Source: Paramacrobiotus metropolitanus (Eukaryota; Tardigrada; Eutardigrada; Parachela; Macrobiotidae). From it: a stretch of DNA of 64,000 nucleotides. The DNA lies in NCBI RefSeq assembly GCF_019649055.1, contig NW_026570448.1:55279-119278 (forward strand), given 5' to 3'. Shown one piece after another: positions 9,880 to 60,097 of this stretch. Numbering within the stretch: position 1 is the first letter of the stretch; every line of letters begins with the position of its first letter. Position numbers and translations under genes: made by a program. The notes beneath the pieces are model-generated. The model was not told the DNA's origin and searched no databases. It worked only from the letters and a program-made list of their open reading frames with translations.

Positions 9880-10135
9880 GTTGAACAATTTTATGTTGTA
9901 GCAAAATTGCACTGATATGTTGTACGCAGCTCGCTGGAAAATTGCAGTGGGTTATCAGCCGAACATAGCCACGTTTACTGCATGGATTTTTACGCGTTCT
10001 TTGGCAGCCTTAGGTACATTCTTCAGTAAAAAAACAGTGAAAAAATTGTAAAGGGTTATTGACATCGTTGTTTTGTTAAGCCGTCGTTTACTTGAAAGAT
10101 ACGAGAGTACGGCAAATTTTATGCTAGTACTGTAC
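9880..10135. repeat. Duplicated upstream block, copy 2
   Basis: Homologous by eye to 15640-15900: both hold a GCAGCCTTAGG / CCAGCCTTAGG word, a run of A next to CAGTG/CTGTC, TTATTGACAT, then an AGAAACGG/AGTACGG word. The TRIM element at 10136 is inserted directly at its end. Confidence 0.45.
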
Positions 10136-10676
10136 TCTAAGCAGGGCGCAATCCGAGGGAAACCGAGAAACGGCTGAAAAAGGCGCCGATGGGGGAATCG
10201 AACCCCGGCTACGTCGTTAGATCCGCGTAGGCAGTACCACTGCACCACGGCGCAATAAGTTGAAATCCTTTGAAAGATTTTGTCGCTTTACGTGAGCCGC
10301 TTCTCGCCTCACACCCCCTTTGCAGCTTTCGCTACGTCCTCGTAGCGAGACTAAGCGATCCTTCAAGCGGCGGCTCCGGCTCACCGCATCCTCTATTCAT
10401 TTTATCATTTTATTCGTTTTTGCTCTGTTCCTCCCGTTCGAGGTTAGCACACTGGTCTCATAGGCGAAGTGGACGTACCGAACCTTGATCTGCTACCATC
10501 TAAGCAGGGCGCAATCCGAGGGAAACCGAGAAACGGCTGAAAAAGGCGCCGATGGGGGAATCGAACCCCGGCTACGTCGTTAGATCCGCGTAGGCAGTAC
10601 CACTGCACCACGGCGCAATAAGTTGAAATCCTTTGAAAGATTTTGTCGCTTTACGTGAGCCGCTTCTCGCCTCACA
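10136..10676 (-). mobile_element. TRIM-like LTR element with tRNA-like LTRs, copy 1
   Basis: Read on the minus strand: 5' LTR 10676-10499 (178 bp, TGTGAG...CTTAGA), primer-binding site TGGTAGCAGAT directly after it, about 185 bp internal DNA, purine tract GCAAAGGGGG, then 3' LTR 10313-10136. The LTRs appear identical to each other, so the insertion is recent. Flanks carry a perfect 4 bp target duplication GTAC (10132-10135 and 10677-10680). There is no gag or pol. A 72-codon open frame on the opposite strand (10270-10488) also exists in copy 2 but has no motif and is probably fortuitous. Each LTR holds a tRNA-like segment (10182-10253; 10545-10616). Confidence 0.85.
10545..10616 (-). ncRNA. 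tRNA-like Pol III module inside the TRIM LTR
   Basis: 72 nt. The A box is TGGTGCAGTGG and the B box GGTTCGATTCC, both near consensus for internal Pol III promoters. The ends GCGCCG and CGGCGC pair as an acceptor-like stem, GGGG/CCCC forms a T-stem around TTCGATT, and CTACG/CGTAG forms an anticodon-like stem with an oversized 12 nt loop. A TTTTT run follows at once, as a Pol III terminator would. The D stem and anticodon loop are not canonical, so I do not call a functional tRNA. A second, identical copy lies at 10182-10253 in the other LTR. Confidence 0.6.
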
Positions 10677-10740
10677 GTACATTACTTGTTTAAACACACA
10701 AATAAGGCGCTAACCATCATGTACAAGGTAGTACGGAATA

Positions 10741-28623: not shown

Positions 28624-29553
28624 TTATCCACGACGGCATATTAATCCTACTTTGGATTTAAATGCCTTACGAAGGCTTTTAAACGATAACGTAAGCAATA
28701 TGGGATCCAAAACTTGCTGCAAGGAGTATATCACATCACCAAAGACTATCTGTAACACGTCCGGTATCGCAGTATCTCCGAACACCTTAAGAATCCCGAT
28801 AATCTTGGTTGGGGTCCAACATATCAGTGTTATGAATGTAGTCGCCGTAAGGATCAAAAACGCATGCCGGTTTTCTTTCGCCGGTCTCTGTAAACTACTC
28901 TTCCCAATGATGGCAGCTTGACAATGGAATGTTTTCCCAACATCCATGGTTCTGCATAATAAATACGGATATGCCGCTAAAATGATCAGAACCGGAACAT
29001 TATTGATCCAAATCTTTAAGAAGCGGCGCAGAACCGGCTGGGCGCTGCTGACTACCTCGCACTCGGTGGCGGTCTGCATATTGGGCCGATAATACAGAAG
29101 ATCCTGTAATAACAACGGCGATAGTAATACGTGACAGTAGGTCCCCATCGTCAGGCAGATAACCACCGCGATCTGCGTGGAATGGTAGTTGCGGTAGTTC
29201 AGTGGGAAGGTCAACGCCCACATCCGGTTTAACGTGATTAGGAGATGCGCATGAAGGTCCAGGGCGCTTCCAACATGGTCAAAGTATATCTTCATATTGA
29301 ACAGGATCGAGGTGAAGAACCAGCGCACCTGCCAGGATTCCATCATGAAGAACGGGTCCGCCAGGGTTACGAGGATGTTCGACAGGAGCAGGTTGATCAG
29401 ATACACGGTGAAGGGCGTGCGCAGGCTGCGGCTTTTTAGGAAGAAAAATAGCAGGCATCCGTTTAGCGCCAATTTCACGACAGCGAAAACACCCACTGCT
29501 ATAACAGGTCCGTATAATTCCACAGTGCTGGTGTTGGACACATTGGAAGACAT
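28624..29553 (-). CDS. Class A-like 7TM receptor C (single exon, 309 aa)
   Basis: Uninterrupted frame starting MSSNVSNTSTVELYG with two N-glycosylation sequons. TM2 carries LADPFF (residues 64-69). NR of NRMWALTFPLNYR is at 109-110, CWTP of TM6 at 245-248, and DP of TM7 at 283-284. The cysteine that other receptors in the cluster have at the top of TM3 (ILCIIKMY, LLCNIKIY) is Phe85 here (ILFNMKIY), while the ECL2 partner Cys165 (ATECEVV) remains. In class A receptors these two normally form the conserved disulfide, so this copy probably lacks it. It shares with D and E the absence of introns and strong similarity through TM2-TM5. Confidence 0.8.
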   Translation of the reverse strand: MSSNVSNTSTVELYGPVIAVGVFAVVKLALNGCLLFFFLKSRSLRTPFTVYLINLLLSNILVTLADPFFMMESWQVRWFFTSILFNMKIYFDHVGSALDLHAHLLITLNRMWALTFPLNYRNYHSTQIAVVICLTMGTYCHVLLSPLLLQDLLYYRPNMQTATECEVVSSAQPVLRRFLKIWINNVPVLIILAAYPYLLCRTMDVGKTFHCQAAIIGKSSLQRPAKENRHAFLILTATTFITLICWTPTKIIGILKVFGDTAIPDVLQIVFGDVIYSLQQVLDPILLTLSFKSLRKAFKSKVGLICRRG

Positions 29554-30132
29554 GTTTGTGTCACTGAGACGCTTTCGATTTTGTCACTCAGAAACGTAAT
29601 GACAGTGGAAGAGGATTTTTCCTGCATGTACTCTGTAAATACGTAGGTAACGTGGCTATAAATTGTCATCGCGATCCTGAAAACGCTGAAATAGAGGTCG
29701 ATACAAAAAAAATGGGAAGCCGCATGAGCCGAACAACAACTACATTAAATGTTTGCCAAAGGGAATCCCCCAGGATTGCAGTTTTGCTTGGCCGTCGTAG
29801 TATTTCAACAGCCGATGACTTCAAAAATAGTTTTAATAACGATGCGGCCACGATGAAAAGGCTTTTCTCAAGTCGATGCATTTTATTTAATGTGGGAGCT
29901 GTACTGTTATAATTATTAGATTCCCTGGAAAATTAAAGACTTTTTCAAGAAGAGCGATGAGAAGTGTGCAGCTTAATAATTTAAGCACAAGTACATTATC
30001 AAGAAAGACAGTTTTATCAGCGAGTTTTTATTCCCTTCAGTTATACGCCTACGTAAGCATTAAGTTGAAGTTTGTCAAGTTGAGCGCTAAACATGCTAGT
30101 TATCCAAGCAAGCTAACGATTGGAGGGGACAT
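29554..30132. other. Spacer between receptors C and D
   Basis: AT-rich. The plus-strand open frame 29652-29912 has no motif. No supported gene. Confidence 0.35.
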
Positions 30133-31071
30133 CTACTGGCAGCTGCACAATCGGTGTAATGTAAATTTGACCGTTGCACGCAGGCGTTGTAACGATAATG
30201 TAAAGAGTATGGGATCCACTATCAGCTGCAAGGAATATAAGACATCATCCAGCACAATTCGCACCGATTCCGGCACCGTTACATCCCGAAAAATCCTCAA
30301 AATATTAAGAAACTTGGCTGGGCTCCAGCAGATTACTATACTGCCAGTTAAACCGGTAAGGATCCAGAAAGCATGCCGGTTTTCTCCGGATGCAGCCTTC
30401 TCTTTCCAGATTTCCGCGAAGTGTCCTCTGCCGCGGGGCAGTGGTGACGGAACCGTTCTGTCCTTGGTTTTCCATAATAAATACGGATACGCTGACACAT
30501 TTACCAACATCGGGGCTGTATTGATCCAGATTTTCAAGAATCTGCGCAGAATCGGTTGGGCGCTGCTGACCACCTCGCATTCGGTGGCAGTCTGCATATC
30601 GGGTCGGTAGTATAGAAAATCTTGCAATAATAACGGTGATAGTAAAACATGACAGTACGTCCACATCGTGGCGCAGATCAGCACAGCGGTTTTCGTGGAA
30701 TGGTGACTGCGGTAGTGCAGGGGAAAGGTCAAGGCCCACATGCGGTTAAGCGTGATCAGAAGGTGGGCGTGAAGAGTCACTGCACTGCCAATATGGTCCA
30801 GATACATTTTTATAATGCACAGTATCGATGTGAAGTACCAGCGTACTTGCCAGGATTCCAGCATGAAAAAGGGATCCGCCAGGGTAATGAAGATGTTGGA
30901 GAGGAGCAGGTTAATTAAATACACCGTAAAGGGCGTGCGTAGACGGCGGTTGTTTAGGAAGACAAAAAGCAGGCATCCGTTAAACATAAGCTTCAATATC
31001 AGGAAGACTCCCAGAGAGATGGCCGGTCCTGGGAAACCCTCGACAGTGATGTTGGATAAGTTGGAAGGCAT
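30133..31071 (-). CDS. Class A-like 7TM receptor D (single exon, 312 aa)
   Basis: Intact frame starting MPSNLSNITVEGF. TM2 has LADPFF, the TM3 cysteine is present (ILCIIKMY), then NRMWALTFPLHYRSHH. ECL2 has ATECEVV, TM6 CWSPAK, and TM7 DPILFTLSLQRL. The third intracellular loop is Arg/Lys-rich (RTVPSPLPRGRGH). It is closest to receptor C, which lies 0.6 kb downstream in the same orientation, so they are probably a tandem duplicate pair. Expected in the plasma membrane; ligand and G-protein unknown. Confidence 0.82.
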   Translation of the reverse strand: MPSNLSNITVEGFPGPAISLGVFLILKLMFNGCLLFVFLNNRRLRTPFTVYLINLLLSNIFITLADPFFMLESWQVRWYFTSILCIIKMYLDHIGSAVTLHAHLLITLNRMWALTFPLHYRSHHSTKTAVLICATMWTYCHVLLSPLLLQDFLYYRPDMQTATECEVVSSAQPILRRFLKIWINTAPMLVNVSAYPYLLWKTKDRTVPSPLPRGRGHFAEIWKEKAASGENRHAFWILTGLTGSIVICWSPAKFLNILRIFRDVTVPESVRIVLDDVLYSLQLIVDPILFTLSLQRLRATVKFTLHRLCSCQ

Positions 31072-31948
31072 CTTCTTGTACAGATAACTTAGTCGCCGTT
31101 TTCAAAAACGTATTGATAGTGCAGATGTGATACTGGCGCATACTTTGCATATGTCTAACTATTAACTGTTACCGGGATTAAGGTAACCGTGGATAGATAT
31201 TCTTTCCAAAAAAATGTGCAGAGTCATTCCTGCTGAGCTAGAGAACTTTTACCAGAGTAATTCCCTTAGGAACGCCGCCCAAAGATTCGATTAAATATTT
31301 CAGCAGCTTCTGGCTTTAAAATTGACTATAGCATTTTGCATTCACAATATTACAGGATCTTTAAATAACGATGAATTTTGCTAATATTCCAATAATGCAT
31401 GACGTATGCCACATCGTATACATATTGCCAGAAAATTTAGAGTTACTGTAGAAAAATGCGTTGAGAAAATTGATGTTATGATACTGTACAGTTTACAGTT
31501 ACACTGATAAAAAGAGAAACACACGACTTAAAAGCTATAGCTGTATTAGCTATTTTGCTCACCAATAAAGCTTTATAATGGTTATCTTTCAAATTCTTTA
31601 ACTTTGTTAGAATGTTATCCTTGTTTACATGCGTAAGCGTCTAATTTGTCTAAGCACTTTCACACCATAAAGGCTTGGGTTAGTTTCTCTATAATTTCAA
31701 ATTATTTGCCTTGTAATGGTAGCATTGCCGCGCCCTGGACTATGGTTATAACTTGCTGACTCAAGTTTCTTGATGGTTTGCCCAGGGGATTCTTAACAGT
31801 GCTGTCTTAACGAATCCACAACGGAATATTGTTAGGTAATCAAGCAGGAACTCTGTTACCTGTCTTCCGCACGATCAATACCTGCCGATAATCATACAGC
31901 TTTGAAGTAGGTGCCATGCAACACCAACGAACGAAAGAACAAACAAAA
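31072..31948. other. Spacer between receptors D and E
   Basis: AT-rich, about 880 bp, no supported gene. Confidence 0.35.
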
Positions 31949-32914
31949 TTATGACAATGTTTTAATGGTACAAAACCGCTTTAAATGCTTTATCACACGG
32001 GTACGCACACGCGTCAGAGAAACCGTAAAAAGCATCGGATCCAGGATCATCTGGCATGTGAATATAACATCGACAAACGCTATATCAATCCATCTCGGCG
32101 TTTTAACGTCACCAAACACTTTGGCGATACTGATGACTTTGGCCGGGGTCCAGCAAATGAAAATACTGACAGTCAAAACGGTCAGCACCCAGAAAGCATG
32201 CAGGTTTTCTCTCGATTCCGCTTTCTCCTTCCTGATTTGCACGCGTCGCTCTGTTCCACAGTTCATTTGAGATGAAATTGTTTTCCTCTTCGTGTTCTTA
32301 GTTTTCCATAACAAATAGGGATAGGGTAACAGGATAACCAGCGCTGGCATTGTGTTAATCCAGATTTTCAGGAATTTCCGCAGGACTGGTTGGGCGTTGT
32401 TGACCACCTCGCATTCGGTGGCAGTCTGCATATCCGGTCGATAATAAAGCAGATCGATCAACAATAACGGCGCTAACAATAAATGGCAGTACAGTGTCAT
32501 CAAAAGGCAAATGAGGATAGCGATTCTCTTGGAATGGTAGTTGCGGTACGACAGAGGAAAAGTCAGCGCCCAGATGCGGTTCAGGGTGATTAGACAGTGG
32601 GCATGGATACCTAAAGCGCTTCCCATATGGTCTAAATAAATTTTGATGTTACACAGTAGGGATGTGAAAAACCAGCGCAGTTGCAAAGATTCCATAATAA
32701 ACAAGGGATCCATTGAAGTTTTAATGATATTCGAGACCAGTAAATTAATCAGATACACGGCGAACGGTGTTCTTAAGCTTCTGTTGTCCAGGAAAATATA
32801 CAGCAAATATCCGTTCAGCAGGCACTTTACTGCAGCAAAGACGGTTATGGTCACAGCCGACGAATCGAATTGTTTATCCGTTAAATTGGAAATATTCACA
32901 GACCTATTTTTCAT
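31949..32914 (-). CDS. Class A-like 7TM receptor E (single exon, 321 aa)
   Basis: The start is set at MKNRSVNISNLTD (32914) because it gives an N-terminus like the paralogs. The frame is open further upstream to 33025, but those codons fall partly inside the TRIM element at 32982 and would put an unrelated tail on the receptor. Marks: VSNIIKTSMDPLF in TM2, the TM3 cysteine (LLCNIKIY), NRIWALTFPLSYRNYH, ATECEVV in ECL2, CWTPAK in TM6, DPMLFTVSLTRV in TM7. The third loop is basic (KTKNTKRKT). Same orientation as B, C and D. Confidence 0.8.
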   Translation of the reverse strand: MKNRSVNISNLTDKQFDSSAVTITVFAAVKCLLNGYLLYIFLDNRSLRTPFAVYLINLLVSNIIKTSMDPLFIMESLQLRWFFTSLLCNIKIYLDHMGSALGIHAHCLITLNRIWALTFPLSYRNYHSKRIAILICLLMTLYCHLLLAPLLLIDLLYYRPDMQTATECEVVNNAQPVLRKFLKIWINTMPALVILLPYPYLLWKTKNTKRKTISSQMNCGTERRVQIRKEKAESRENLHAFWVLTVLTVSIFICWTPAKVISIAKVFGDVKTPRWIDIAFVDVIFTCQMILDPMLFTVSLTRVRTRVIKHLKRFCTIKTLS

Positions 32915-32981
32915 GAGGATACATTTACAGGCATCTTTTCTTAGCCTAATAATAATAATCATACATTTAATGTTAATTGCC

Positions 32982-33522
32982 TGTGAGCAGAGAAGCGGCT
33001 CACGTAAAGCGACAAAATCTTTCAAAGGATTTCAACGTATTGCGCCGTGGTGCAGTGGTACTGCCTACGCGGATCTAACGACGTAGCCGGGGTTCGATTC
33101 CACCATCGGCGCCTTTTTCAGCCGTTTCTCGGTTTCCCTCGGATTGCGCCCTGCTTAGATGGTAGCAGATCGTGGTTCGGTACGTCCACTTCGCCTATGA
33201 GACCAGTGTGCTAACCTCGAACGGGAGGAACAGAGCAAAAATGAATAAAATGATAAAATGAAAAGAGAATGCGGTGAGCCGGAGCCGCCGCTTAAAGGAT
33301 CGCTTAGTCTCGCTACGAGGACGTAGCGAAAGCTGCAAAGGGGGTGTGAGCAGAGAAGCGGCTCACGTAAAGCGACAAAATCTTTCAAAGGATTTCAACG
33401 TATTGCGCCGTGGTGCAGTGGTACTGCCTACGCGGAACTAACGACGTAGCCGGGGTTCGATTCCCCCATCGGCGCCTTATTCAGCCGTTTCTCGGTTTCC
33501 CTCGGATTGCGCCCTGCTTAGA
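32982..33522 (+). mobile_element. TRIM-like LTR element with tRNA-like LTRs, copy 2
   Basis: 5' LTR 32982-33159 and 3' LTR 33345-33522 (178 bp each, TGTGAG...CTTAGA). They differ at about three positions by eye, so this copy is older than copy 1. The primer-binding site TGGTAGCAGAT begins at 33160, directly after the 5' LTR. The purine tract GCAAAGGGGG directly precedes the 3' LTR. Target duplication TGCC is at 32978-32981 and 33523-33526. Total length 541 bp, the same as copy 1. The internal 185 bp has no coding signature. It sits 68 bp upstream of receptor E's start, in the opposite orientation. Confidence 0.88.
33042..33113 (+). ncRNA. tRNA-like Pol III module, 5' LTR of TRIM copy 2
   Basis: Same 72 nt module as in copy 1, with A box TGGTGCAGTGG, B box GGTTCGATTCC and a following TTTTT. 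The T-stem has one change (CCACC for CCCCC). The 3' LTR copy (33405-33476) has GGAACTAAC for GGATCTAAC, and its T run is broken to TTATT, so termination there may be weaker. Confidence 0.55.
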
Positions 33523-33592
33523 TGCCCATAGCCTAGTGGTAGTACGTCTGGCTTTAAGATTGTATGTCCTGGGTTCGATTCCTAGGTGGGTA
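33523..33592 (+). tRNA. tRNA-like sequence or tRNA pseudogene next to TRIM copy 2
   Basis: TGCCCAT at the 5' end pairs with GTGGGTA at the 3' end (7 bp with two wobbles), and CTGGG/CCTAG closes a T-loop TTCGATT. The A-box-like word is TAGCCTAGTGG and the B box GGTTCGATTCC. The D arm and anticodon arm do not fold canonically, so no anticodon is assigned. It could be a decayed tRNA gene or the head of another tRNA-derived repeat. The TRIM target duplication TGCC is its first four bases. Confidence 0.4.
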
Positions 33593-33595
33593 ACT

Positions 33596-34084
33596 TTTAT
33601 CTCATAAAATCAAACCAAAAAAAGTATAAAATTTTCAAAGTAAACAAAAAATTTTCCAATAGCCTGGTTTGCCCAACGGTTTTCACCTGAGGGTAATAAG
33701 TCTCCGTAATGGAGTTTGGCTACTGTAGTACGATAATAATAATAAAAAATAATAATAATAAATTAGCGGTGCACAGGTTTACGAGACACATCTGCATTCA
33801 GTAGGTTTCCAAACTAGCTCGGCGATGGTAACTGTACTACCCACGCGATTTTAGGCGATGACAAAGTTAAAGTTGTTTTCTCTGTTGATGACCGGAACAA
33901 GTGATTGCGCAGCTGCACTAACGGTACACTGTCATTCGTGGCTTTAAGCAAACATGCCAAACTTTTGCATTCAGCGGAGAAACTAGTTTCCGGTGCCCTC
34001 AGTGGAAACTAAGCACGCTGGTCACTTTACGAACAAAAACAAAGTAAAAAGAATTATCCACCATCCGATTTTTGTTCCGCTTGT
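33596..34084. other. Spacer, no supported gene
   Basis: AT-rich with an ATAATAATAATAA microsatellite near 33730. Confidence 0.35.
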
Positions 34085-48235: not shown

Positions 48236-48672
48236 TGTCAGAGGCGTACGACTGCGCCTGGTGCGTACGGTCCACACAGGACGTACTTGCACCATTGCTT
48301 GCCGATACCACCTCTCTCGCTGTACGTACGTGTGCTGCTGCACTGCACTCATCCGCTGAAGCGGATATACGCAGCGCATACACTGAGCCACACTTGCTCT
48401 CTCGTTCCTCTCTCGCAGTATGACTCAGCGTTCATACGCTCGCGTTGGATTGAGTCCAGTCTGCGCATCATCACACAGCTGATGGCACACAGCACGTGCT
48501 TGCCGCCAGTTGCTTCTTTCACGCCTTGACGGACGCTCAAGAGCTTTTCTAGCACACACTTGCTATTAGCCATCACGGCTTTGTTCTTGCTTTCCTGCTA
48601 TCACGCAGTATTGCTCCCCCTTTATTTGTCAATAAAGCATCACTCGTTATCTCCTCGTGCTTGTCTGTTACA
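48236..48672 (+). repeat. Putative 5' LTR of the gypsy element
   Basis: Begins TGTCAGAGGC and ends CTGTTACA. AATAAA lies 36 bp before the end and the primer-binding site TGGTAGCAGATT starts at 48673. The left border is inferred from the TG rule only, because no second LTR is visible for comparison. Confidence 0.55.
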
Positions 48673-49973
48673 TGGTAGCAGATTCATAAGGTTTTCGATC
48701 TTACGGACCCTTTGAGGAGACGGTGAAGGCTTGAATTATGGAGAACTCGTGAGGAACCTGAAAGTCACTGTCAGATTGATTACTGAAGTAATCTCTGCTC
48801 TGACTTCGATCGGACTGATCTTGCCGTCTTACAGCTGAGGAAAACGAGGATCACTGAAGTGATTCTCACCCAGCTGGTGAGCACAGTTTCTTCGTCTCTT
48901 CCACACTGAAGAGCATCCCAACAGCACGGACATTTTCTTCTCCCAACTGACGGATCAGACTCGAACGAGAGTCTGCAGCGCGAACGGATTAATCCAATAA
49001 TACGGGGACCTTCGCTTTGAACAGCGACCCGCAACTTACACGCGGATTTCAGCTCGGAAACGACGGATTTCCGACCTCGGACGGAGGAAATCGACCGGAA
49101 CCGACACCGACACCGACACTGGTAAAGTCACGGTTATAGGTCGATTCTAGCCGCAACTAGGTCGGCATTTCACTTTCTAACGGTAGAAAACTATTTCTAT
49201 CCGTAAAATTTAACTTTTTAACGGTTAAAAAGTAATTTCCGACGGAGAAACCGACTCGGAATTTTGCTTTTGGTCGAGAACCGACCTGCCAGGTCAACGA
49301 ACCTGTCTAGACAGTTAGACAAAGGCTAACCGGCAACAGGTCGGAAATTCTCTTCATTTTAATTTCTAACGGTGTTTCGACCACCAAAAAAATTTTTCTT
49401 AATTAATAAAATTAATTTCTAACCGTTAAAAAACTCGAAAATCCGACTAGATAAACTTTCTAGCCGATCAAAAATAATTTGTTTTTCTCGCGGAAAATAG
49501 CGCGAAAATTCTCGAACTTCCTTGTGACGTCATAACGACCGCTTATCAGTACTTAAGAAGCAGCCAATCAGAGTGCAGGGGAAAGTTCCCATAGCCTAAC
49601 ATAGGCGTGATTCATCGTTTTTTGTAAATTTTGCACGCGGCTCGCATTCTGTGACGTAGGCAGAAGTGCAAGACCACTTAACCTGTTACGTCACACTGGT
49701 CAGCACAGTAGTATAGGACGTACTACACCGTACTACTATAACGTACTGTACTGTACCATAGTACTGTATATTAACCCTGTGTACTGAGTCACCAACAGAC
49801 ACATCAACAACAACAACAACATCTCACCGGACGTTCCCGACACTCGGAAGTTCCTGAACCAAAAGACGTTCCCGATTCCATCGAACATCTTCACACAGAA
49901 GATTGTTCGATTTTCTCTTTCTAATTAATAAAACTTTTTAAGGCTCCACCAGAGCCGACCTGATTCGACAACA
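48673..49973 (+). promoter_or_regulatory. Long leader of the gypsy element with primer-binding site
   Basis: 1.3 kb without an open frame. From about 49050 it is dense in CCGACC, GGTCGG, TCGGA and AACCGAC words, the same words that saturate the coding part. It could hold the packaging signal; that is inference. Confidence 0.45.
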
Positions 49974-51243
49974 ATGTCGAATCCCAGAGAAAACGAATAC
50001 GCGAGAAAGTTCAACACTGACTATTCTCGGCGTGCGAACATGACCGGGAAGTACTCACTCCGGTACGCCGGTCAGGACAAAAGTCAGCCGTCCTCAACCG
50101 ACTCGACTAAGTCAGCCGAAGCGAAGGAGAGACGCAACGAACGGATTCTCCTCGCCGACTCGAATCCAACTGGATGACAGTCTTGAGGACGCCAGGGATA
50201 AAACATTCCTGGAAGCCCCAGCTGACGTAGCAGCCCCGTCCCACCCGACTGTGGGGGATGTGGAACAGCTGCAGGCAGAGACCACGTTGTCTCATGCCGA
50301 CCAACAGTCGAGCTCACACAGAGCTCCAGACTCGGTAACGGTCACAAAGGCCACCGAGCTCGGACGGCAATCACCCAACAGGACGGAAGAAATGCCGAAG
50401 CCGACCTCGTCCAACATGGACATACCGACTAACCAAGTCGGACGGAAATCGCCGACCACACAGGTCGAGCGAAAATCTCCGACCAAAGAAGCCGGTGAAC
50501 CATCACCGACTAGGGAAGTTGACCAACCGAAGGTCGACCTACCACTAACGAACGAGGTCGGACAACCGACCTCGAACGGAACGGAGAAACCGACAACAGA
50601 AGTCGGCACCGTCCAACCGACCACACAGGTCGGAAGGATTTCGCCAAACTCCAAGGTCGGACAACAGACGCCGACCACAGAGGTCGGAGAAAAGGAAGTC
50701 GGCAACAGGCAACCGACCAGCCTGGAACGGCAACCAGCCGACACAAAGTCGGATGCGGCCGTCCAGTCGACCAAACTACCGGCAGGAATGAAAGATTCCG
50801 AGGTACCGCCACGAAGCGGCCCTCACCCAGCTGGATCGCCGACTAGTATACCGGCACCCAATGAACGGGTAATTTCACCGTTGAGCCGACCTTCGCCAAC
50901 CGGACGCGAGTCGACTCGAGCAACCGAAGCTCAACAAACGGTGAAGTCGACTAAGGCGACACAAAGTCGACCTGTCGACCTGAACCAAAGGTTGTCACCA
51001 CCAATGTTCGGAACTGGCGAACTTGGTAGTACTCCGTCACCGACAAACGAAGTCTTTGAGGCAACAAACGCATCAAGACCGAGCAGTGCGGACGGATTTT
51101 TCACGACACCACCCAAGTCCGATAAGGAGAACCTCGGATACCATGCCAGTGCACTCGAATACACGGCTAAGAAGTGGATCGCGGCAACACCGCCCGAAAA
51201 GATCACCGATCTCGACCTACTCGAGCGAGATGCCATAAACTGA
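49974..51243 (+). CDS. gag: gag N-terminal region (two frames)
   Basis: Starts MSNPRENEYARKFNTDYSRR. After about 50 codons the frame must shift to enter the next open stretch (DDSLEDARDKTFLEAPADVA), which continues to a stop at 51243. The middle is a degenerate repeat of about ten residues built on PTTEVG / TTQVGRKSPT, rich in Pro, Thr, Val, Gly and Glu, and probably disordered. No nucleocapsid or capsid motif is in this part. The assignment as gag comes from position between leader and protease. Confidence 0.55.
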
Positions 51244-52622
51244 TCACACAGATCGTTTTGGCGGACAAAATTGTCGACTCGGCAGAAGGATCCCTCCGAA
51301 ACTCGGAGGACACCCATAAACTCGAACGGAGGAAATGGGAACGAGACATGGCCGATGCCAACAAGGGCATCGCCACCCAACAACGGGAGATCGACCGGCT
51401 AAACGCCATACTGAAGCGGGCTGACTTACCGTGTCGATACGAAGACGACCAAGTCGCCATACTAACCGGCATGCTGGAACGGTCAACCGCAGCCGTCTTC
51501 GAAATCAAGAAGGAGCTTGACGAAGCGAACAAAGCGCTCGAAGAAGCACAGAAAGACCTGGCCGATGTTCAGACCGCACTGGTCGAGTCGGAACAGGCGG
51601 CAGGGGCGTTCCATCAGCAACTCAACCAGGCCAACGAAGAGGCCGAAGTCTATCGAAACGAAGTCGACAGATATGTGGTGGAACTTAAGAAGGCCGATAA
51701 CGAGATCGACCGATTAACGCAACGAACCGACGAACTCGAGTCGGAAATGGAACTCCTCTTCGTCAGAATGGGACGTCGATTCATCGATGCAAACGCTCGG
51801 GACATGGGCTTTCCTAACCAAAGGACAGCCGATGTTGACCTGGTGGAAGCAAACGCTCAGCTAGCCGACCAGGTTCATGGACTGAACCAAGTCCTCAAGG
51901 AGGAACAGAAACTCCGAGCTCAACTGGAGTACAACCTGAACGAAGCCGAAAAGGTAAACGAGGCGCAACACAGCCGCATCGTTTACCTGGAAGCTCGTGA
52001 AGTCGAACTATACGACTTCGGCGAACAAGCCGCCCGCAATCTCACAGAGATGATGCGGCAAATGGACGAGATGGACACGGAAACACGGTGTCTGAGGGAA
52101 GAGAAGAAGCACCTGGAACAAAGCCAGGTCGAACTTCCCCCATACCGGGAACGAAGTCGGGTTGAACCTCCTTCATACCGGACGTCCACGGCACAGGATC
52201 AACAGCCGTCACGAACGATCAGTGACATCCTGTGGGGAATCAATCCAACCCAGCAAATGGCGGAGAAGGAGAACAGCACCTCCTACTTCGTCGGAGTCGT
52301 AACGACCGACCCAAGCGTGGGAACAAACCCACAACCACCAACAGTTCCGGCTGCTTCGGAACCGGAACACAATACGTCGACCGCGGTACCGCGTGTGCCA
52401 ACGTCGAACGTGGCGACAACGACGTCTGCCGGTGCATATACCAGCACCTCGTACGCGACGCGGACAACAACGTACGCGCCGGTACCTAATGCGAGAGGAG
52501 GTCGGACAACAGATGCCGAACGTCTCCCAGTCCCGTCACTGAGACCGGGCATACAAGCATATCGCCCACCAAGGACGAACTCCAGCGAACTTCCTCCACC
52601 AGAACCCGCCGTTCGACTTTGA
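51174..52622 (+). CDS. gag: gag coiled-coil region
   Basis: Open for 482 codons; the real entry is probably at about 51240 by frameshift from the preceding frame (ITQIVLADKIVDSAEGSLRN). Residues from about 40 to 330 are heptad-like and rich in Glu, Gln, Asn, Leu and Ala (KELDEANKALEEAQKDLADV, QLEYNLNEAEKVNEAQHS), indicating a long coiled coil. The end is Pro/Thr/Ser-rich (PPTVPAASEPEHNTSTAVPR). A coiled coil of this length in gag suggests a self-assembling structural protein. Confidence 0.6.
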   Translation: MDRGNTARKDHRSRPTRARCHKLITQIVLADKIVDSAEGSLRNSEDTHKLERRKWERDMADANKGIATQQREIDRLNAILKRADLPCRYEDDQVAILTGMLERSTAAVFEIKKELDEANKALEEAQKDLADVQTALVESEQAAGAFHQQLNQANEEAEVYRNEVDRYVVELKKADNEIDRLTQRTDELESEMELLFVRMGRRFIDANARDMGFPNQRTADVDLVEANAQLADQVHGLNQVLKEEQKLRAQLEYNLNEAEKVNEAQHSRIVYLEAREVELYDFGEQAARNLTEMMRQMDEMDTETRCLREEKKHLEQSQVELPPYRERSRVEPPSYRTSTAQDQQPSRTISDILWGINPTQQMAEKENSTSYFVGVVTTDPSVGTNPQPPTVPAASEPEHNTSTAVPRVPTSNVATTTSAGAYTSTSYATRTTTYAPVPNARGGRTTDAERLPVPSLRPGIQAYRPPRTNSSELPPPEPAVRL

Positions 52623-54533
52623 ACGAGCAAGGGCTCGGTCATTCAACACGACTGACCAGCGGCAGGACGGACAGAACGGAGAGGATAGCTCCGACCAACA
52701 AGGTCGGGTGCCCCTACACCGACTAATACAAGGTCGGATACCGGTTCAGGGAACACAGCCCAACCGGTACGGAAGAGTCTACGATCAACCGAGTGGATTC
52801 TACCGCAGGCGCCGAGACAAAATCGAGCGCCCCTCCACAACAGTATGAGGACAGCCGCAACGGCCTCGTCACGAAGACCAGGCCCAGGCTCCGCAACAGG
52901 ACGAATACGACGGCTACGACGAAGAAGCCTATCAACAGGGGCATATGAAGACCAGCAAGGTCACGTACCATATGCCAACCCGCCACCCGCCCCGGCTGCA
53001 CAACAAGCTGCGCCGGTGGCAAACCCGATTCACCCACAGGACCCGGCACATATCGCTTTGGTACGAGCGATATCTCACGGACGTCGGCAACCCTTACCGC
53101 CGTTCGACGGAGACCACACCAAACTTCATGGGTGGCTCAAACAGATCCGAAGCCTGTATCGTCAAGCCCAACAGTGGTACGAGGACGATCAGACTTTCAT
53201 GTCCGACTTGGTAGCCCGACTAGAGGGCCGAAGAATGGCATACTCTCGAAGCCGCCGGAGAACCACTCGGCGGATGGCCAGTCAACGTATGGCTGACCAA
53301 ATTCGAGCAGCGATTTGCGGACAAGAACAAAGAAGTGAACATGATATCCCGAATTAACAAACAAATATTTCGTTTCGGCGAAGAAACGCCGGAACAATAC
53401 TACGACGCAATGATGTTCATGAAGTCCCAAGTCCCCGATTACCGATCAAATAATAATGTACCACCTCAAGGAGAATATCCACGAACCCAAACTACGGGAA
53501 GCCCTGGAAATCAGGATGCCAGCGACACCAAGTTCCGCGACTACTTACGGAGCTTCGTCAATGGCAAAGCAAATGTATGAGGTGCGCAGACAACGCGATG
53601 GCGACTACGCCAGAGTTCGGGCAGCAACACCTGCACCTGTCCTGTCCACATATCCGGCAACAAACCGGATATCAGCCGCACATGATGCCGGGATACCAAA
53701 CTCGACGGCACAGTACGGACAACCGGAGTCCGGCGCCGACGCCACCGGTGCAACAAGCACCAGTCCAGCAGACTTGGGCGAGCGCGGCGGCAGCAAACCT
53801 GAATCCCCGGCACCTGGAATAGGAGCCCCCGTTAACAACTACGGAGGCCCAGGTTATGGCTCGGGCGGTAACCAAAACAACACAGGTTTGGTTACGGACA
53901 GAACCCGAACCAGGGATACTCCGCATACGCCCACCTCCCACACAGGGATACGGCGGCGGAGGTTTTGGTCGCGGAAAAGGACGTGGCGGCGGAAAACGCG
54001 GTCGCGGTAACTTTCCTAACCGCGGCGGAGGCGGCAACCAACAAGGGAACCGACCCCCAGGCACAACAAAGTGCTCGGCAATACACGACCTACGTGGACC
54101 GGATGGAACAACTGTTCCTCCAATGGTCGTTAGCGGACAGCGACACAGCTTCTGCAAGTTCAGCAATCACGACCAAGCACGATGTGCGTTCATCGGCACT
54201 CGGGTACAGGACAACCCGAATCGCCGTTGGTTCGAGGATTGGCATACGCGATACCAGACGGGAGGACCGTTGGGATCGGCCAGCGAACTATATGCACTGG
54301 TCGTGCCGCCCCGCCAACGCCAACAAGGTGGAGGCTCGGGCGGCGCCAGTAACGAAACCGGCAAACCGGCCCAGGAAACGGGTCGGGTAGCAACAGGAGC
54401 GGTGGAGGTCAACAAGGATCTCCGGAACGGCGGCAACAGTTACCGCCACACCAGCATTTCGGCTTGGCGTCTAACAACGGGCCAGCTCGGAGTAACTCCC
54501 CGGGAAACGCCCAAGGTCGATGAGCTCCGGTGA
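52623..54533 (+). CDS. gag: gag capsid/nucleocapsid-like region, fragmented
   Basis: Successive frames carry a capsid-like segment: LPPFDGDHTKLHGWLKQI, QWYEDDQTFMSDLVARLEGR, then in another frame EPLGGWPVNVWLTKFEQRF and QIFRFGEETPEQYYDAMMFM. This fits the retrotransposon gag domain, in which a helical segment ends in a W-x-x-F-x-x-RF-type motif. Further on comes a Gly/Arg-rich RNA-binding stretch (GRGKGRGGGKRGRGNFPN) and Cys/His residues (HSFCKFSNHDQARC) that may form a variant zinc knuckle. At least four frame changes lie within it. Confidence 0.55.
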
Positions 54534-54797
54534 CTCATTCGACCTCCAACATCCGACCGAACCGGACAAGGATAATCCAACTAACCAGCCGCTTACCCTA
54601 CGGAACGAGCCGAACTTTAATCCGTTACAAAAACGGATAGCGACAGTCCTAAACATTAGGACTGGACTGGACCAGTTGCACGGAGGAGGAATTCTCGGCA
54701 CTGTCAGCCCCCACAAAGGCCGCCCGAACTAAAGGCAGCCGAACTCGGAATTTTCATCAACAACGGTGAAATCGAGTTCCGGACCGGAACGCAAGAA

Positions 54798-55733
54798 ATG
54801 CCCGGCCGAACCGACCCAGCGCACCGACATGGCGCTGGAACAACGGCGATATGGAACGAATCGAACTTTCCTACAACGATGCAGGAAAGCCATCAACAAA
54901 TAGCCACCATCCTTCAACTACTCGGACTGAACGAAAACAGTTCCGAGGAGGAATTCGCAAAAGCGATATCGGCCCCCACAAAGGAGGCGGAAACGGCTCG
55001 GAAGTTAGCCGCTCAGCTCGGCGTGTACGCCAACAATGGCACCGTCGAAGCCTGGCCCGGGATGCAACAGGCACTCGAGGCAACCGACCCAGCACCTCGA
55101 CTTGATGCTGGAACGTCGGAGGTCGGAACGCAGGAACTGCCCGACCCAAGCAGCGCAAACAAGGCGACTGCGCCGTCCGTCACACAAAGTGACGTAGTAC
55201 GGCCCGGCCACGGAAGCTGGACCGGATTGCCGGTGAGGACAAACTCAACCGAGCAGCCCAGACGAGGCCCAAGACGTGGAGGACCGGGACGCCGATCCAC
55301 GCACCGGGGCAACAGAAACTTCCCCAATGCATCATCCGGACGCGCAACGGATAGATACGCTGCAACAATGGCAGCAATCGACCTTACCGAAGAACCGGAA
55401 GGATTCGAGCAATGGGAAACAGTCCCACTGGAAGCACAGGTACCCGCCTACTCTCGGCCGGAGGAAGCGGACCTCTCCCAGCCAAAGGAGCAGCCCACTA
55501 GAACGGTAGCTGGCTCTCAATTCCTCAACCTCGACTACATGTGGTCGACATTGAGACCAACGGAGGTCTCGATGGAGGAACGGATACTGGCACATGCACA
55601 ACGGTTCAGAACCGCCGAAATACCGAAGGACGGAGTCATGAACCGACCTGAGGTACAAGAAGTGGCTGAAGTCGAAGTGAGCCTACACAAGGTTCAATTC
55701 AACAGCAAACCGACCACGGACCGGTGTCATTAA
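54798..55733 (+). CDS. Region between gag and protease, unrecognised
   Basis: 311 open codons with helical, polar sequence (HQQIATILQLLGLNENSSEE, KEAETARKLAAQLGVYANNG) and a basic patch (RRGPRRGGPGRRSTHRG). No known retroelement domain recognised. Probably the C-terminal part of the gag polyprotein. Confidence 0.45.
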   Translation: MPGRTDPAHRHGAGTTAIWNESNFPTTMQESHQQIATILQLLGLNENSSEEEFAKAISAPTKEAETARKLAAQLGVYANNGTVEAWPGMQQALEATDPAPRLDAGTSEVGTQELPDPSSANKATAPSVTQSDVVRPGHGSWTGLPVRTNSTEQPRRGPRRGGPGRRSTHRGNRNFPNASSGRATDRYAATMAAIDLTEEPEGFEQWETVPLEAQVPAYSRPEEADLSQPKEQPTRTVAGSQFLNLDYMWSTLRPTEVSMEERILAHAQRFRTAEIPKDGVMNRPEVQEVAEVEVSLHKVQFNSKPTTDRCH

Positions 55734-55848
55734 TTCCCCATCAAACCAACGATACGGGAAGTGACCTTCGAAAAAGACACACAAGAAACCGAAAACAGTT
55801 CGAGCTTGGACACACGAAATCCAAGTCGGATCCACGCCCACACTGGCG

Positions 55849-56418
55849 ATGTTGGATACCGGAGCGGAAACCTCGCTCATCGAACAACGGTTTTGTGAGA
55901 GGAACGGCTTAACGATGCAACCTCTCGGACACTACACCAAAATACTCGGTGTAGGCGGACAAGTCGCCTTCGTAGTGTCTCATTGCTGTACGGCACCTGT
56001 CACAATGCAGGGCTTTACTAGCCATCACACTTTTCACGTCCAGCCGACCGAAGCGGACATCCCAGTGCTACTCGGATGCGACTACCTGCATTCGAAGTTC
56101 ACCTTCATCCTGACACCGATTCCTATTCCGGAACAACCAGAAGGAACGAAGGTAGTGCAGTCTATCCCGATACCAGAGGCATCGGACACGGTAGGAAACG
56201 AAGTTCGGATTAGTCGGCTTGATCACCCGGCGAACTCCACACGTAACATCTGCCGCGATTGCCGGGATACGAACCGCACTCTGCTGGAGGAACTAGCACT
56301 CCATAACGTGATAGAGCACTATCAGAAACGGATACGCGACGGTACACTACGACCGGCTAGGACTGTACTGAAGTCTATCCCGATACCAGAGGCATCCGCT
56401 GACGCGGATGCCATGTAA
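55849..56418 (+). CDS. Retroelement aspartic protease
   Basis: The frame opens on the active-site motif MLDTGAETSLIEQ, has a flap-like GVGGQVAF, and ends the fold with VLLGCDYL (equivalent to ILG-D-L in retropepsins). Coding must continue from upstream in the same or another frame, since the motif is at the very start. IPIPEAS occurs twice, encoded by a perfect 23 nt direct repeat (at about 56159 and 56373). The protease would process the gag-pol polyprotein. Confidence 0.75.
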   Translation: MLDTGAETSLIEQRFCERNGLTMQPLGHYTKILGVGGQVAFVVSHCCTAPVTMQGFTSHHTFHVQPTEADIPVLLGCDYLHSKFTFILTPIPIPEQPEGTKVVQSIPIPEASDTVGNEVRISRLDHPANSTRNICRDCRDTNRTLLEELALHNVIEHYQKRIRDGTLRPARTVLKSIPIPEASADADAM

Positions 56419-59400
56419 AGAAACGACTACGACAAAAGTACCGAACTTGGTTCACGGGAGTTCGACACTTCCTCGACCAACGGACGTCGGAGATAGTGAC
56501 CACTCTGCAACAGAACGGAGCGGTAACCCCGACCAGATACTGGACGCACAACAAACGTGTGAACCGGTAATCGCCCTTACAAACGACATAGAGGACGAAG
56601 CATGGGAATGGGAAGACAAACGAATTCCGATCCATCGACAGTATATGGAATACGGACTCCCTATACCACCCCCCTTGGAAATGCCCTGCCAGGAATTGGG
56701 CTCCCAACTTTTCGCCTACATGCAGCGAGTAAGGTTGCACGGAGAATCGTCAACAACGGCATTCTGGCAACGATACGGCGAGGACACCGCCATAACGCGG
56801 CAAGTTCCTAAACCGCTACCGCCACTTATGGCGCATACTCCAACCGACGTGAAGTTCGCGAGTAGCCTGGCGAAGCCTCAGCGAAACACAGTCCTGGAGG
56901 AAACCGATAAACCCTATCGGTGTGCCATCTGTCAAGACAATATTGACGAGGTAGTACGAGCAATAAAGGCTCACCACGACCTAACTTGGTCGGACGACAG
57001 ACCGTCGTCACCATCGCCTCCGCAACAGGAACGGAAGGTAGATCGCTTTCGGAAGCCCCAACAGACGAGCATCCGATGGCTGAGCAACATAAGCTCCCAG
57101 CCAACCGACCTCGAGAATCAGGACGGAGCGAGTCGACCTACCCAACCGATGGAGCAAGTCGAGCAACCCGAACCGACCACAAAGGTCGGATTCGGCAATA
57201 TGTCAGAAGTCGACCCCGAAAACGGATCGGAAGTCGAATTCGAAGATTATCAGTCGGACGACTCGGACATACAAAGTACGAGCGATTCGGCGGACACGGA
57301 CTCCGATAACCGACCTTCGGAAGAATCCGAGGAAGACGACGACGAAGAATTCGATCCGTCAGTTCGGCACTGTAAGACGGATAAACCGAGCATAAACGAC
57401 TCGGATGACCCGTCATCGGAGGACGAAGAACCGACCTACGATGTCCGGCTAACCACAGCATTGCGATCTACAATTCACACAGAATTCATAGACGAGCAAC
57501 CGGAACAAACCGAGCAAGAAAAACCGGTCGACTCCGAACAACAGGAGGGACTCGACCAACTTAAAATTTTGTGGGAATTCGGAGGAGGTAAACCGGAAGA
57601 AGACGATTTCCGACCTCCAATCATAGTCGTCCAGCCGTTGTCAACGGAACAACCGACCTTGGCTAACTTGACCGACCAACAGAAGTCGGAGCATTTCAAC
57701 ACATGGAAGGCACGAGTCGCCAAAGTCACGACAATCGAAGAGTTGGACCTGGTCAACAAATGCCCAGAAATTCACCACTTAAAGCTGGATCCTTACGTGG
57801 AGACGAAAGCGTTAGACCGACAAGTTATCTTCAACAGCGAACGAGTCTCCCTCCCACCATGGTCAACATGTTCGATCAAGGTACGGACGGCCAAACCAAT
57901 GGATCCGAGAAGACGAATTTACTTCTCTACCCTACAGCGGGTAGCCCGACCTATTCGGCCAATCGGAGCCAAGATCGACATCCGACCTCAAAACGACACG
58001 GCATGGATAAACATCCAGAATACGACTCACCAAACAAAGGTGCTAAAGAAGGGCGTACGACTTGGCCACATGCAATACGCCGACGTCTACGAACCAGAGA
58101 TAAATAACGAATTTGTCGAATGGGAACTCCCACACAAAGTGGCGAAGACATGGCCCCATACTCGGGAAGCAAAGCCAAAACCCCAGTTCGAAGTTTTCGA
58201 GGCAACAGGAGTTCGAGCCCAACGGAAGGTCAAACTCATTCCTCGAGCCGTCACCATGGTAGAAGTCGTCCTGGACGTACCGGTATCCATGGACCAGAAA
58301 CTTATGTACCTAGGTGAATCCGACCCCAAACGAGACGGAGTCGAATTCATGGACGGCGTAACCAAACATGACGGGAAACGATTCACCGTCATGGTGGTAA
58401 ACCACACTCATCGAGAGGTAACCTTACGCAAAGGTGCCCCGATGGGCCGAGCCGAAGCATTCACAATGATGACGGACGACCAGAAGGTCGAAGAAGCACG
58501 AGTCAACACGGCGGAGGTAGAAAAGGAAGACGCCGAATCCCAGGAGGAGCGACGGAGAATCATCGACTCCATGAACTTCGGTAAAAACTTAACCGACGAG
58601 CAACTCGCCAAACTAAAGGCAGTTGCATGGGATTACCGGACCGTATTTCCGACCTCGAAGAAACCCTACGGAGACGTCAAAGGGGTAACACATACCATTG
58701 ATGTCCAGGGCGCACAGCCGATTAAGATGAACCCCACCAGGACAAGCTGGAAGGGACGTGAATTCATCCAAAAACACGTGCAGGAGATGCTCGACCAAGG
58801 AGTCATCGAACCGTCATCGGCTGCATGGAGCTTCCCCGTCGTCTTAGCCGCGAAACGGAACGGAGACGGCACGGTAGGAACACGCTTCTGCATCAACTAT
58901 ATCAAGTTGAATGCCGTCACGAAGAAAAACAACTACCCACTACCGAACCCGGACGAGCTACTGGACCGATGCGCCGGAATGGAGTATTACGGCAAGGTAG
59001 ACTGTCAGTCTGGTTTTTGGCAAATTCCCATGGACGAACAATCCAAAGACTACACGACCTTCGTAACACCCGAAGGCATGTGGCGATTTAACCGTATGCC
59101 ATTTGGAGTCTGCAACGGACCAGCCACCTTCCAGATGCATATGGATAAAATCACAGCATCAGCTCGGAAGAAGGGTGTGTTCGCCTACATCGACGACATC
59201 ATCTTCTTCGGAAAAACGTTCGAAGACTTCCTTGAGGCTTTCCGAGCGACTCTCGAATGCCTCGGCGATGCTGGATTTACGGTCAAACCCTCCAAATGTG
59301 AGATCGGAACGGACAGACTGCTGTTCCTTGGACACGTTCTTAGCAAGGACGGGGTCCAGACCGATGACGAGAAAGTGGCCTGTATAGCAGAACAAAGCTG

Positions 59401-60097
59401 CCCGAGAACCGAACGACAACTCAGGTCGTTCCTCGGATTGGCCAACTATTATCGTAAGTTCATCCGAGGATACGCTCAGAAAACTTCGAAAATGTATGAG
59501 CTCCTCCGGAAGGACAAAAACATCAAGCTCGATTGGACGGAAGCCCACACGGCCGAGTTCAACGACATCAAAAAGGCGCTAACAGAAGCACCTGTACTGG
59601 CGAAGTTCGACCCGACTAAGAAGACCGTCATCGAATGTGACGCAAGCGGAGCCGGACTTGGCGCGGTGATCTCACAAGACGATCATCCAATCGCTTACGC
59701 CAGTCGAGTCCTACGTGGACCGGAACTCAACTATGGAGTTACCGAATGGGAATGCCTGGCTGTGGTATGGGCCGTGCAGAAATTTAAGCACTTCATCGAC
59801 CACGGACCATTCACCGTAAGGACGGATCACCGAGCATTGCAGAATCTGCTCCGATGCGAGTCGAACCGACCTGGCATCAACCCTCGACTAACAAGATGGG
59901 CACTGGCTTTACAAGGACGGGACAAGCCATCGAGTACAAGCCAGGTGTATTCTGCGACAATGCGGACGCCCTGTCGAGATGGCCATTGGAACGCAGTGAA
60001 GACAAAGATCCACACGAAGAGTTGGGCCAAGTCCCCAACTTCGAGGACTTCAAGGACGAAGTTAAGGTCTGTACAATACGGACTCTTAGACGTCTGA
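56408..60097 (+). CDS. pol: Reverse transcriptase and RNase H
   Basis: 1229 codons. The first 700 or so form an acidic linker with a CAICQDNIDEVVRAIKAHH zinc-finger-like piece. RT then begins near PTRTSWKGREFIQKHV, with NYPLPNPDELLD, KVDCQSGFWQIPMDE, FNRMPFGVCNGPATFQ, the catalytic FAYIDDIIFF (YIDD at residues 927-930) and FLGHVLSKDGV. RNase H starts at CDASGAGLGAV (Asp at residue 1078) and includes TDHRAL. The true frame is lost after residue about 1180, where the reading continues in the next frame (59854-60678). Order and motifs are Ty3/gypsy-like. Confidence 0.85.
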   Translation: MPCKETTTTKVPNLVHGSSTLPRPTDVGDSDHSATERSGNPDQILDAQQTCEPVIALTNDIEDEAWEWEDKRIPIHRQYMEYGLPIPPPLEMPCQELGSQLFAYMQRVRLHGESSTTAFWQRYGEDTAITRQVPKPLPPLMAHTPTDVKFASSLAKPQRNTVLEETDKPYRCAICQDNIDEVVRAIKAHHDLTWSDDRPSSPSPPQQERKVDRFRKPQQTSIRWLSNISSQPTDLENQDGASRPTQPMEQVEQPEPTTKVGFGNMSEVDPENGSEVEFEDYQSDDSDIQSTSDSADTDSDNRPSEESEEDDDEEFDPSVRHCKTDKPSINDSDDPSSEDEEPTYDVRLTTALRSTIHTEFIDEQPEQTEQEKPVDSEQQEGLDQLKILWEFGGGKPEEDDFRPPIIVVQPLSTEQPTLANLTDQQKSEHFNTWKARVAKVTTIEELDLVNKCPEIHHLKLDPYVETKALDRQVIFNSERVSLPPWSTCSIKVRTAKPMDPRRRIYFSTLQRVARPIRPIGAKIDIRPQNDTAWINIQNTTHQTKVLKKGVRLGHMQYADVYEPEINNEFVEWELPHKVAKTWPHTREAKPKPQFEVFEATGVRAQRKVKLIPRAVTMVEVVLDVPVSMDQKLMYLGESDPKRDGVEFMDGVTKHDGKRFTVMVVNHTHREVTLRKGAPMGRAEAFTMMTDDQKVEEARVNTAEVEKEDAESQEERRRIIDSMNFGKNLTDEQLAKLKAVAWDYRTVFPTSKKPYGDVKGVTHTIDVQGAQPIKMNPTRTSWKGREFIQKHVQEMLDQGVIEPSSAAWSFPVVLAAKRNGDGTVGTRFCINYIKLNAVTKKNNYPLPNPDELLDRCAGMEYYGKVDCQSGFWQIPMDEQSKDYTTFVTPEGMWRFNRMPFGVCNGPATFQMHMDKITASARKKGVFAYIDDIIFFGKTFEDFLEAFRATLECLGDAGFTVKPSKCEIGTDRLLFLGHVLSKDGVQTDDEKVACIAEQSCPRTERQLRSFLGLANYYRKFIRGYAQKTSKMYELLRKDKNIKLDWTEAHTAEFNDIKKALTEAPVLAKFDPTKKTVIECDASGAGLGAVISQDDHPIAYASRVLRGPELNYGVTEWECLAVVWAVQKFKHFIDHGPFTVRTDHRALQNLLRCESNRPGINPRLTRWALALQGRDKPSSTSQVYSATMRTPCRDGHWNAVKTKIHTKSWAKSPTSRTSRTKLRSVQYGLLDV

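Follow-up and report, generated by a model that had tools for sequence, protein, structure and literature searches.

SINEs derived from tRNAs carry an internal promoter of A and B boxes and a T run, and are without long terminal repeats (LTRs), a primer-binding site (PBS), a polypurine tract (PPT), and target-site duplications (TSDs) of a fixed 4 bp. Among miniature LTR elements (TRIMs), the plant element Cassandra is described as carrying 5S rRNA in its LTR, that is, a Pol III unit derived from a small-RNA gene, with its terminator, in each LTR, and as forming tandem LTR arrays (PMC7215508). The ant element PbTRIM is an animal TRIM of 480-781 bp with LTRs of 152-184 bp and 4-bp TSDs; its primer is tRNA-Leu, its commonest target is ATAT, and the passages of its description drawn on here mention no tRNA-like module in the LTR (PMC3532108). 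The closest described elements are those of Helenus (TRIMp3 class), reported from six animal phyla, fungi, and one plant (Kojima 2024, Biology 13:119, PMC10886601). According to the main text of that paper, they are short non-coding LTR elements with tRNA-like A and B boxes in the LTR, a PBS, and a PPT; animal members make 4-bp TSDs, tandem arrays occur (zebrafish LTR-11_DR), and solo LTRs are found in fungal families. Their function was argued from the conservation of the boxes, and their dependence on Gypsy elements was inferred from the likeness of primer-binding sites (PMC10886601).

Two copies of an element with the LTRs, tRNA-like LTR module, PBS, PPT, and 4-bp TSDs of Helenus lie in the window (the whole stretch of 64,000 bases analysed) from the tardigrade Paramacrobiotus metropolitanus (Eutardigrada, Macrobiotidae). 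The sequence-only reading from which this work began was right to recognize a TRIM, each LTR of which holds a tRNA-like unit of the Pol III type, and a logic like that of Cassandra. It was wrong in taking tRNA-like modules to be unknown among animal TRIMs, as the animal Helenus elements have them (PMC10886601). The element differs from SINEs in having LTRs, a PBS, a PPT, and fixed 4-bp duplications, and from Cassandra in that its unit is tRNA-like and its host an animal; no 5S rRNA match reached the Rfam cut-off in the window. We consider it likely that the element belongs with the Helenus-type TRIMs, as a non-autonomous LTR retrotransposon with a tRNA-derived promoter in its LTRs, for which a Pol III RNA and enzymes supplied in trans are proposed. 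It is apparently a member of the Helenus class from a new host phylum: Tardigrada is outside the six animal phyla named, and the string 'tardigrad' is absent from the main text of Kojima 2024 (PMC10886601). No tardigrade Helenus was found among the titles and abstract openings listed in literature searches, and the passages drawn on from a paper on transposable elements in two other tardigrade species mention no such element (PMC11071193).

Apart from extending Helenus to Tardigrada, the material described below provides an animal member with an initiator-tRNA primer, together with a second Helenus-like family and a comparison of variants that suggests selection for a working module. There is also a practical risk in annotation, as such LTRs may be mistaken for SINEs or tRNA pseudogenes.

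Anatomy of the window copies and their primer site

By direct reading, both copies are 541 bp long and consist of a 178-bp LTR, a 185-bp non-coding interior, and a second 178-bp LTR. Copy 1 (32982-33522, plus strand) comprises a 5' LTR at 32982..33159 (TGTGAG...CTTAGA), an interior at 33160..33344, and a 3' LTR at 33345..33522, and copy 2 (10136..10676, minus strand) comprises LTRs at 10499-10676 and 10136-10313 with the interior at 10314-10498. Perfect duplications directly abut both: TGCC at 32978..32981 and 33523..33526 for copy 1, and GTAC at 10132..10135 and 10677..10680 for copy 2. The two LTRs differ at 3 of 178 positions in copy 1 and at 0 of 178 in copy 2. The shared architecture that had been claimed for the two copies (LTRs, PBS, interior, purine tract, and 4-bp TSDs) is thus present in the sequence as claimed. 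No reading frame of at least 130 aa lies wholly inside either copy, the frames at 31949-33031 and 32640-33086 merely entering the 5' end of copy 1; as non-coding elements with two LTRs and a length of less than 1000 bp, the copies agree with the definition used for Helenus. The usual 3' end of an LTR is CA, and the window LTRs end in GA (CTTAGA); across the border table described below, the last two bases of complete LTRs are GA, TT, or TA, with AA in a single row, and they are subfamily-specific.

The interior of copy 1 starts with TGGTAGCAGATCGTGGTT (33160..33177, plus strand), a stretch in which copy 2 has 2 changes, and the interior of both copies is closed by the polypurine tract AAAGGGGG, at 33337..33344 in copy 1, where it adjoins the 3' LTR. 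From the 3' end predicted by the primer site we found a host gene ending in ATCGAAACCACGATCTGCTA, which ARAGORN calls tRNA-Met(CAT) and which, from its AGCAGAT... start and ATCGAAA T-loop, we take to be of the initiator type. The primer site of copy 1 is complementary to the 3' end of this tRNA plus CCA at 18 of 18 positions, and the elongator tRNA-Met differs; a general animal initiator core had 0 matches in the genome at up to 2 mismatches and was dropped as a probe. In the partial account of Helenus used here, an initiator tRNA-Met primer is given for fungal families, whereas the hymenopteran, vertebrate, and bivalve families are assigned Lys, Leu, Trp, Arg, His, Ile, Pro, Glu, or Ser; for the brachiopod, ctenophore, and nemertean families that account names no primer (PMC10886601).

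The primer-site sequence occurs 145 times in the genome at up to one mismatch (100 places listed), and its reversed control 0 times. Twelve of these places were read by eye: L102 belongs to the family of the window copies and L109 to the second family, while L101, L103, L104, and L106 resemble junctions of other LTRs with a primer site, so that the 18-nt site, exact or with one change, appears by eye to be common to other LTR|PBS-like junctions. The same 18 nt (at most one change) also recur in a repeat at L099, L105, and L108, with L100, L107, and L110 similar but less clear. This repeat runs antisense to a retropepsin frame in L029, and the presence of the primer-site sequence inside it is either an odd coincidence or the mark of a past capture.

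Copies, borders, and target sites in the genome

A genome search with the whole element gave at least 48 full or partial matches (best 40 of 338 candidates scored), and the architecture is therefore not a product of chance; searches with the LTR alone and with the interior gave at least 40 matches each (best 40 of 379 and best 40 of 47 candidates scored, respectively). The sample examined consisted of 45 sources, the window included, with 83 LTR segments, 81 of them near full length, and 38 interior segments (34 near full length). A probe made of the PPT and the LTR start had 44 genome hits at up to 2 mismatches, and its reversed control 0. In the subfamilies represented by L093, L094, L095, L096, and L098, the last 80-90 bp of the interior are better kept than its middle part, where divergence is strong or alignment fails; L098 retains the primer site.

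The borders were tabulated in 48 rows, made up of 31 multi-LTR or truncated copies and 17 solo LTRs or other ends. In 40 of the 48 the duplication is exact, 4 bp long, and directly adjacent. Two further rows match after adjustment (L086 when shifted by 1 base; L096 when the LTR is extended by 3 bases, with GCTG on both sides), and the remaining six are truncated or chimeric ends (L089, L097, L026, L010, and the C264 rows L029 and L030). For the target sites we used 41 rows, leaving out the six truncated or chimeric rows and one L096 row. The TSD is in register at 40 of the 41 sites, whereas each of seven shifted registers gives 0-1 matches. At the 40 in-register sites the third base outside the TSD is A or T in 40/40 on each side, compared with 18-28 of 40 in the 76 background columns, which lie at a distance of over 20 bases, and the second bases outside are also raised in A/T (33/40 and 32/40). 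The A/T at the third outer base on both sides is a symmetric, integrase-like signature. In Drosophila, LTR elements are reported to have palindromic target motifs that extend as far as 3 bp outside the duplication (PMC3276498).

Copy 1 has a demonstrable empty site. It is inserted in a tRNA-headed, SINE-like repeat whose start lies at 33523..33620 (plus strand), and uninterrupted versions of this repeat at L040, L041, and L047 contain TGCC once. The repeat, at 33523-33760, had 116 first-look candidates in the genome, of which the best 40 were scored, and is partly tandem with a period of 223 or 238 bp. The position of copy 1 at the start of this repeat suggested that Pol III genes might be targeted in the manner of Ty1 or Ty3. 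This was rejected, as B-box-like motifs show no sign of enrichment near insertions: within 500 bp of the 41 sites, in 41,000 bases of flanking sequence, there were 8 hits, of which two are adjacent LTRs belonging to this family, and there were 12 in the 64,000-base window, the family's own LTRs included.

Tandem arrays are found at C56, with three LTRs, and at C60, with four, each enclosed by one outer pair of TSDs. The first two interiors of C60 are 100% alike over aligned bases and the third is 93% alike, while those of C56 are 94% alike, from which both local duplication and recombination between divergent copies were probably involved. Such arrays, and the SINE-like repeat adjoining copy 1, are what could be expected if tandem or paired tRNA-SINEs were mimicking LTRs; this reading retains hardly any probability against the fixed borders, the single pair of 4-bp TSDs for each full unit or array, the PBS, the PPT, and the symmetric target signature. 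Ragged ends with inconstant borders had been named beforehand as the observation that would undo the LTR reading; the borders are constant, the TSDs are present, and the ends are not ragged, which refutes tandem SINEs. It is the LTR borders, primer site, purine tract, 4-bp TSDs, and symmetric target preference together that make the window copies an LTR element.

A second Helenus-like family was found, with a 228-bp LTR (TGATAGG...CTAAGA), its own tRNA-like module, and a T5 run, in copies at C3 (L109 and L122) and C39 (L119 and L121). Its primer site has one change, its duplications are ATGA and GTAG, and one copy is in a tandem array; the genome search returned at least 41 matches (best 40 of 43 candidates scored). 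As the upstream signature position is G in both copies read (n=2), it is possible that this family uses a different integrase.

The tRNA-like module and its apparent retention

The module occupies 71 nt in each LTR (LTR positions 61-131). In the 5' LTR of copy 1 it is at 33042..33112 (plus strand), with an A-box-like stretch at 33048-33058 and a B box at 33091-33101, followed by a terminator-like T5 run at 33114..33118; in the 3' LTR it is at 33405-33475, followed by TTATT at 33477-33481; and in copy 2 the modules are at 10546-10616 and 10183-10253 (minus strand). The segment with A and B boxes that had been proposed is therefore real, with a length of 71 rather than 72 nt, and three of the four window LTRs do have the T5 run after it, the exception being the LTR at 33345-33522. 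The term 'complete tRNA-like unit' was generous: the segment is tRNA-like and has the boxes, but ARAGORN finds zero tRNAs and Rfam no family over its cut-off in the window, and the anticodon loop, read by eye, has 12 nt. Covariance models score the module weakly; in one LTR tRNA-Sec reaches 21.6 bits, which is less than its cut-off. By alignment, the module in the 3' LTR of copy 1 has a best score of 21.5 against the host tRNAs used, compared with a maximum of 8.5 in 60 shuffles. Over 65 aligned bases the modules of the two families share 83% of positions, and are thereby about as close to each other as to host tRNAs.

The B box, GGTTCGATTCC, contains the GGTTC used to define Helenus, and the A-box-like stretch, TGGTGCAGTGG, has the YGG and is without the TRGCY start, which the main text of Kojima 2024 states for most, not all, families (PMC10886601). 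Across the genome sample, 80 of 81 LTRs have a run of at least 4 T after the module, and 77 of 81 a run of at least 5; the lone LTR without a run of 4 is the 3' LTR of window copy 1.

A degenerate module by the standard of covariance models could be a passive passenger, a fragment of a SINE or tRNA captured in the LTR of an ordinary Pol II TRIM. The history of variants bears on this reading. Since the two LTRs of one copy should be identical when inserted, variants common to both predate insertion, and differences between them arose afterwards. Pre-insertion variants number 8 in the module and T run (77 columns) and 115 in the rest of the LTR (101 columns), while post-insertion differences number 52 and 106, respectively, giving a Fisher p of 2.7e-8 over 33 LTR pairs that are not independent of each other, the arrays and the C264 pair included. 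A count of distinct sites gives p 0.011, and when each site and base is counted once, six choices of filter, which keep or drop the arrays and C264, give odds ratios of 3.25-6.0 and p values of 0.0034-0.019; these last are the fair figures because related copies have a common history. Within pairs, too, differences are somewhat less frequent in the module and T run (0.68 per column, compared with 1.17 in U3 and 0.88 in U5), which weakens the selection contrast without removing it, and part of the contrast may have a source other than selection before insertion.

These counts suggest that the module and its T run were selectively retained before insertion, while the elements were mobile. Such a scarcity of pre-insertion variants is unexpected for a passenger, as is the retention of an A-box-like stretch, a B box, and T5 in two host families with different LTRs, and we regard the passenger reading as improbable. 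The constraint seems to bear on promoter sequence and not on tRNA structure, because covariance scores are lukewarm and stems are no better kept than loops (1.26 and 0.97 changes per column, respectively, in 35 distinct modules). Selection for a cloverleaf is likewise unsupported by paired changes, as a two-sided change is seen at one of 19 pairs (14-20), in 2 of the 35 distinct modules. The comparison of pre- and post-insertion changes thus points to constraint on the tRNA-like unit during mobility, where function in Helenus had been argued from the conservation of the boxes.

Proposed transcription, a probable chimera, and neighbouring repeats

For the Helenus-type element preferred here, we propose that Pol III would start in the 5' LTR a short way before the module, read through the first T run part of the time, and stop at the T run of the 3' LTR, giving an RNA of roughly 450 nt whose R ends would be the tRNA-like unit itself. 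First-strand synthesis would be primed by the host initiator tRNA-Met and second-strand synthesis by the purine tract, with reverse transcriptase and integrase supplied in trans by an LTR retrotransposon, probably of the Gypsy type. With a T run in both LTRs, a full-length Pol III RNA needs read-through, and most Pol III transcripts begun in the 5' LTR would be expected to be short. That the genomic RNA is a Pol III transcript with a tRNA-like gene as its R, each LTR being at once a small-RNA gene and a genome end, primed by initiator tRNA and shared by two families, is accordingly put forward as a tentative proposal, with the balance somewhat against it. If this is true, the element depends on read-through of its terminator, and two families of this sort, unlike in their LTRs, are maintained in a single tardigrade.

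An alternative, which we think rather unlikely, is that Pol III uses the module only for a short RNA (~85 nt) or for the recruitment of TFIIIC, the genomic RNA being made in another way. It draws on the same T runs, as a run of at least 4 T after the module in nearly every LTR should end most transcripts in the 5' LTR, and the selection signal is compatible with any use of the module. Against it, none of TATAAA, TATATA, AATAAA, and ATTAAA occurs in the window 5' LTR, the sole LTR checked for these Pol II TATA and poly(A) motifs, though AATAAA does occur in the interior; and the 541-bp length falls in the range of 311-1263 bp given for Helenus in the text of Kojima 2024 (PMC10886601). Some tardigrades can be cultured, and whether the LTRs are true Pol III promoters is therefore open to experiment.

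The copies could also be deletion derivatives of a large autonomous element with the same tRNA-bearing LTR. The candidate for such a parent is C264:16277-24476, which is flanked by these LTRs and by outer GCAT TSDs and has a retropepsin frame in between. This frame is antisense, however, and the join lies at a primer-site-like motif that, with its following bases, is found again in L099, a further copy of the other element, on which grounds C264 was rejected as the autonomous parent; it looks like a chimera, in which the TRIM LTR and primer site are joined to a retroelement with an antisense retropepsin (parts at L029:1501-3173 and L028:700-1680). No other long element with the LTR, interior, or PPT end appears among the matches listed, and we hold derivation by deletion to be very improbable. 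An autonomous relative was seen neither among the best 40 of 47 interior candidates nor among the PPT and LTR hits, 40 of 44 of which were read and lie at known places of the family, and these hits likewise revealed no Gypsy element with the same PPT/LTR end.

Upstream of copy 1, GPCR-like frames are present on the minus strand at 28624-32917; the two that were checked are both 7tm_1, and a possible start codon near 32914 is about 60 bp from the TRIM insertion.

The window also contains a Gypsy-type element (48237-64000, cut by the contig end), assigned to its type by frame order, with an LTR at 48237-48672, a primer site, TGGTAGCAGAT, at 48673, a retropepsin frame at 55765-56418, and an integrase frame at 60636-62207. 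Its primer site has 11 nt in common with that of the TRIM. Five pairs of its LTR with fitting polarity lie 26.9-30.9 kb apart (best 40 of 420 candidates), and for this reason the element may be a giant LTR retrotransposon; among the matches listed there are also a pair at C113, 28 kb apart with unfit polarity, and one at C41, 4.2 kb apart.
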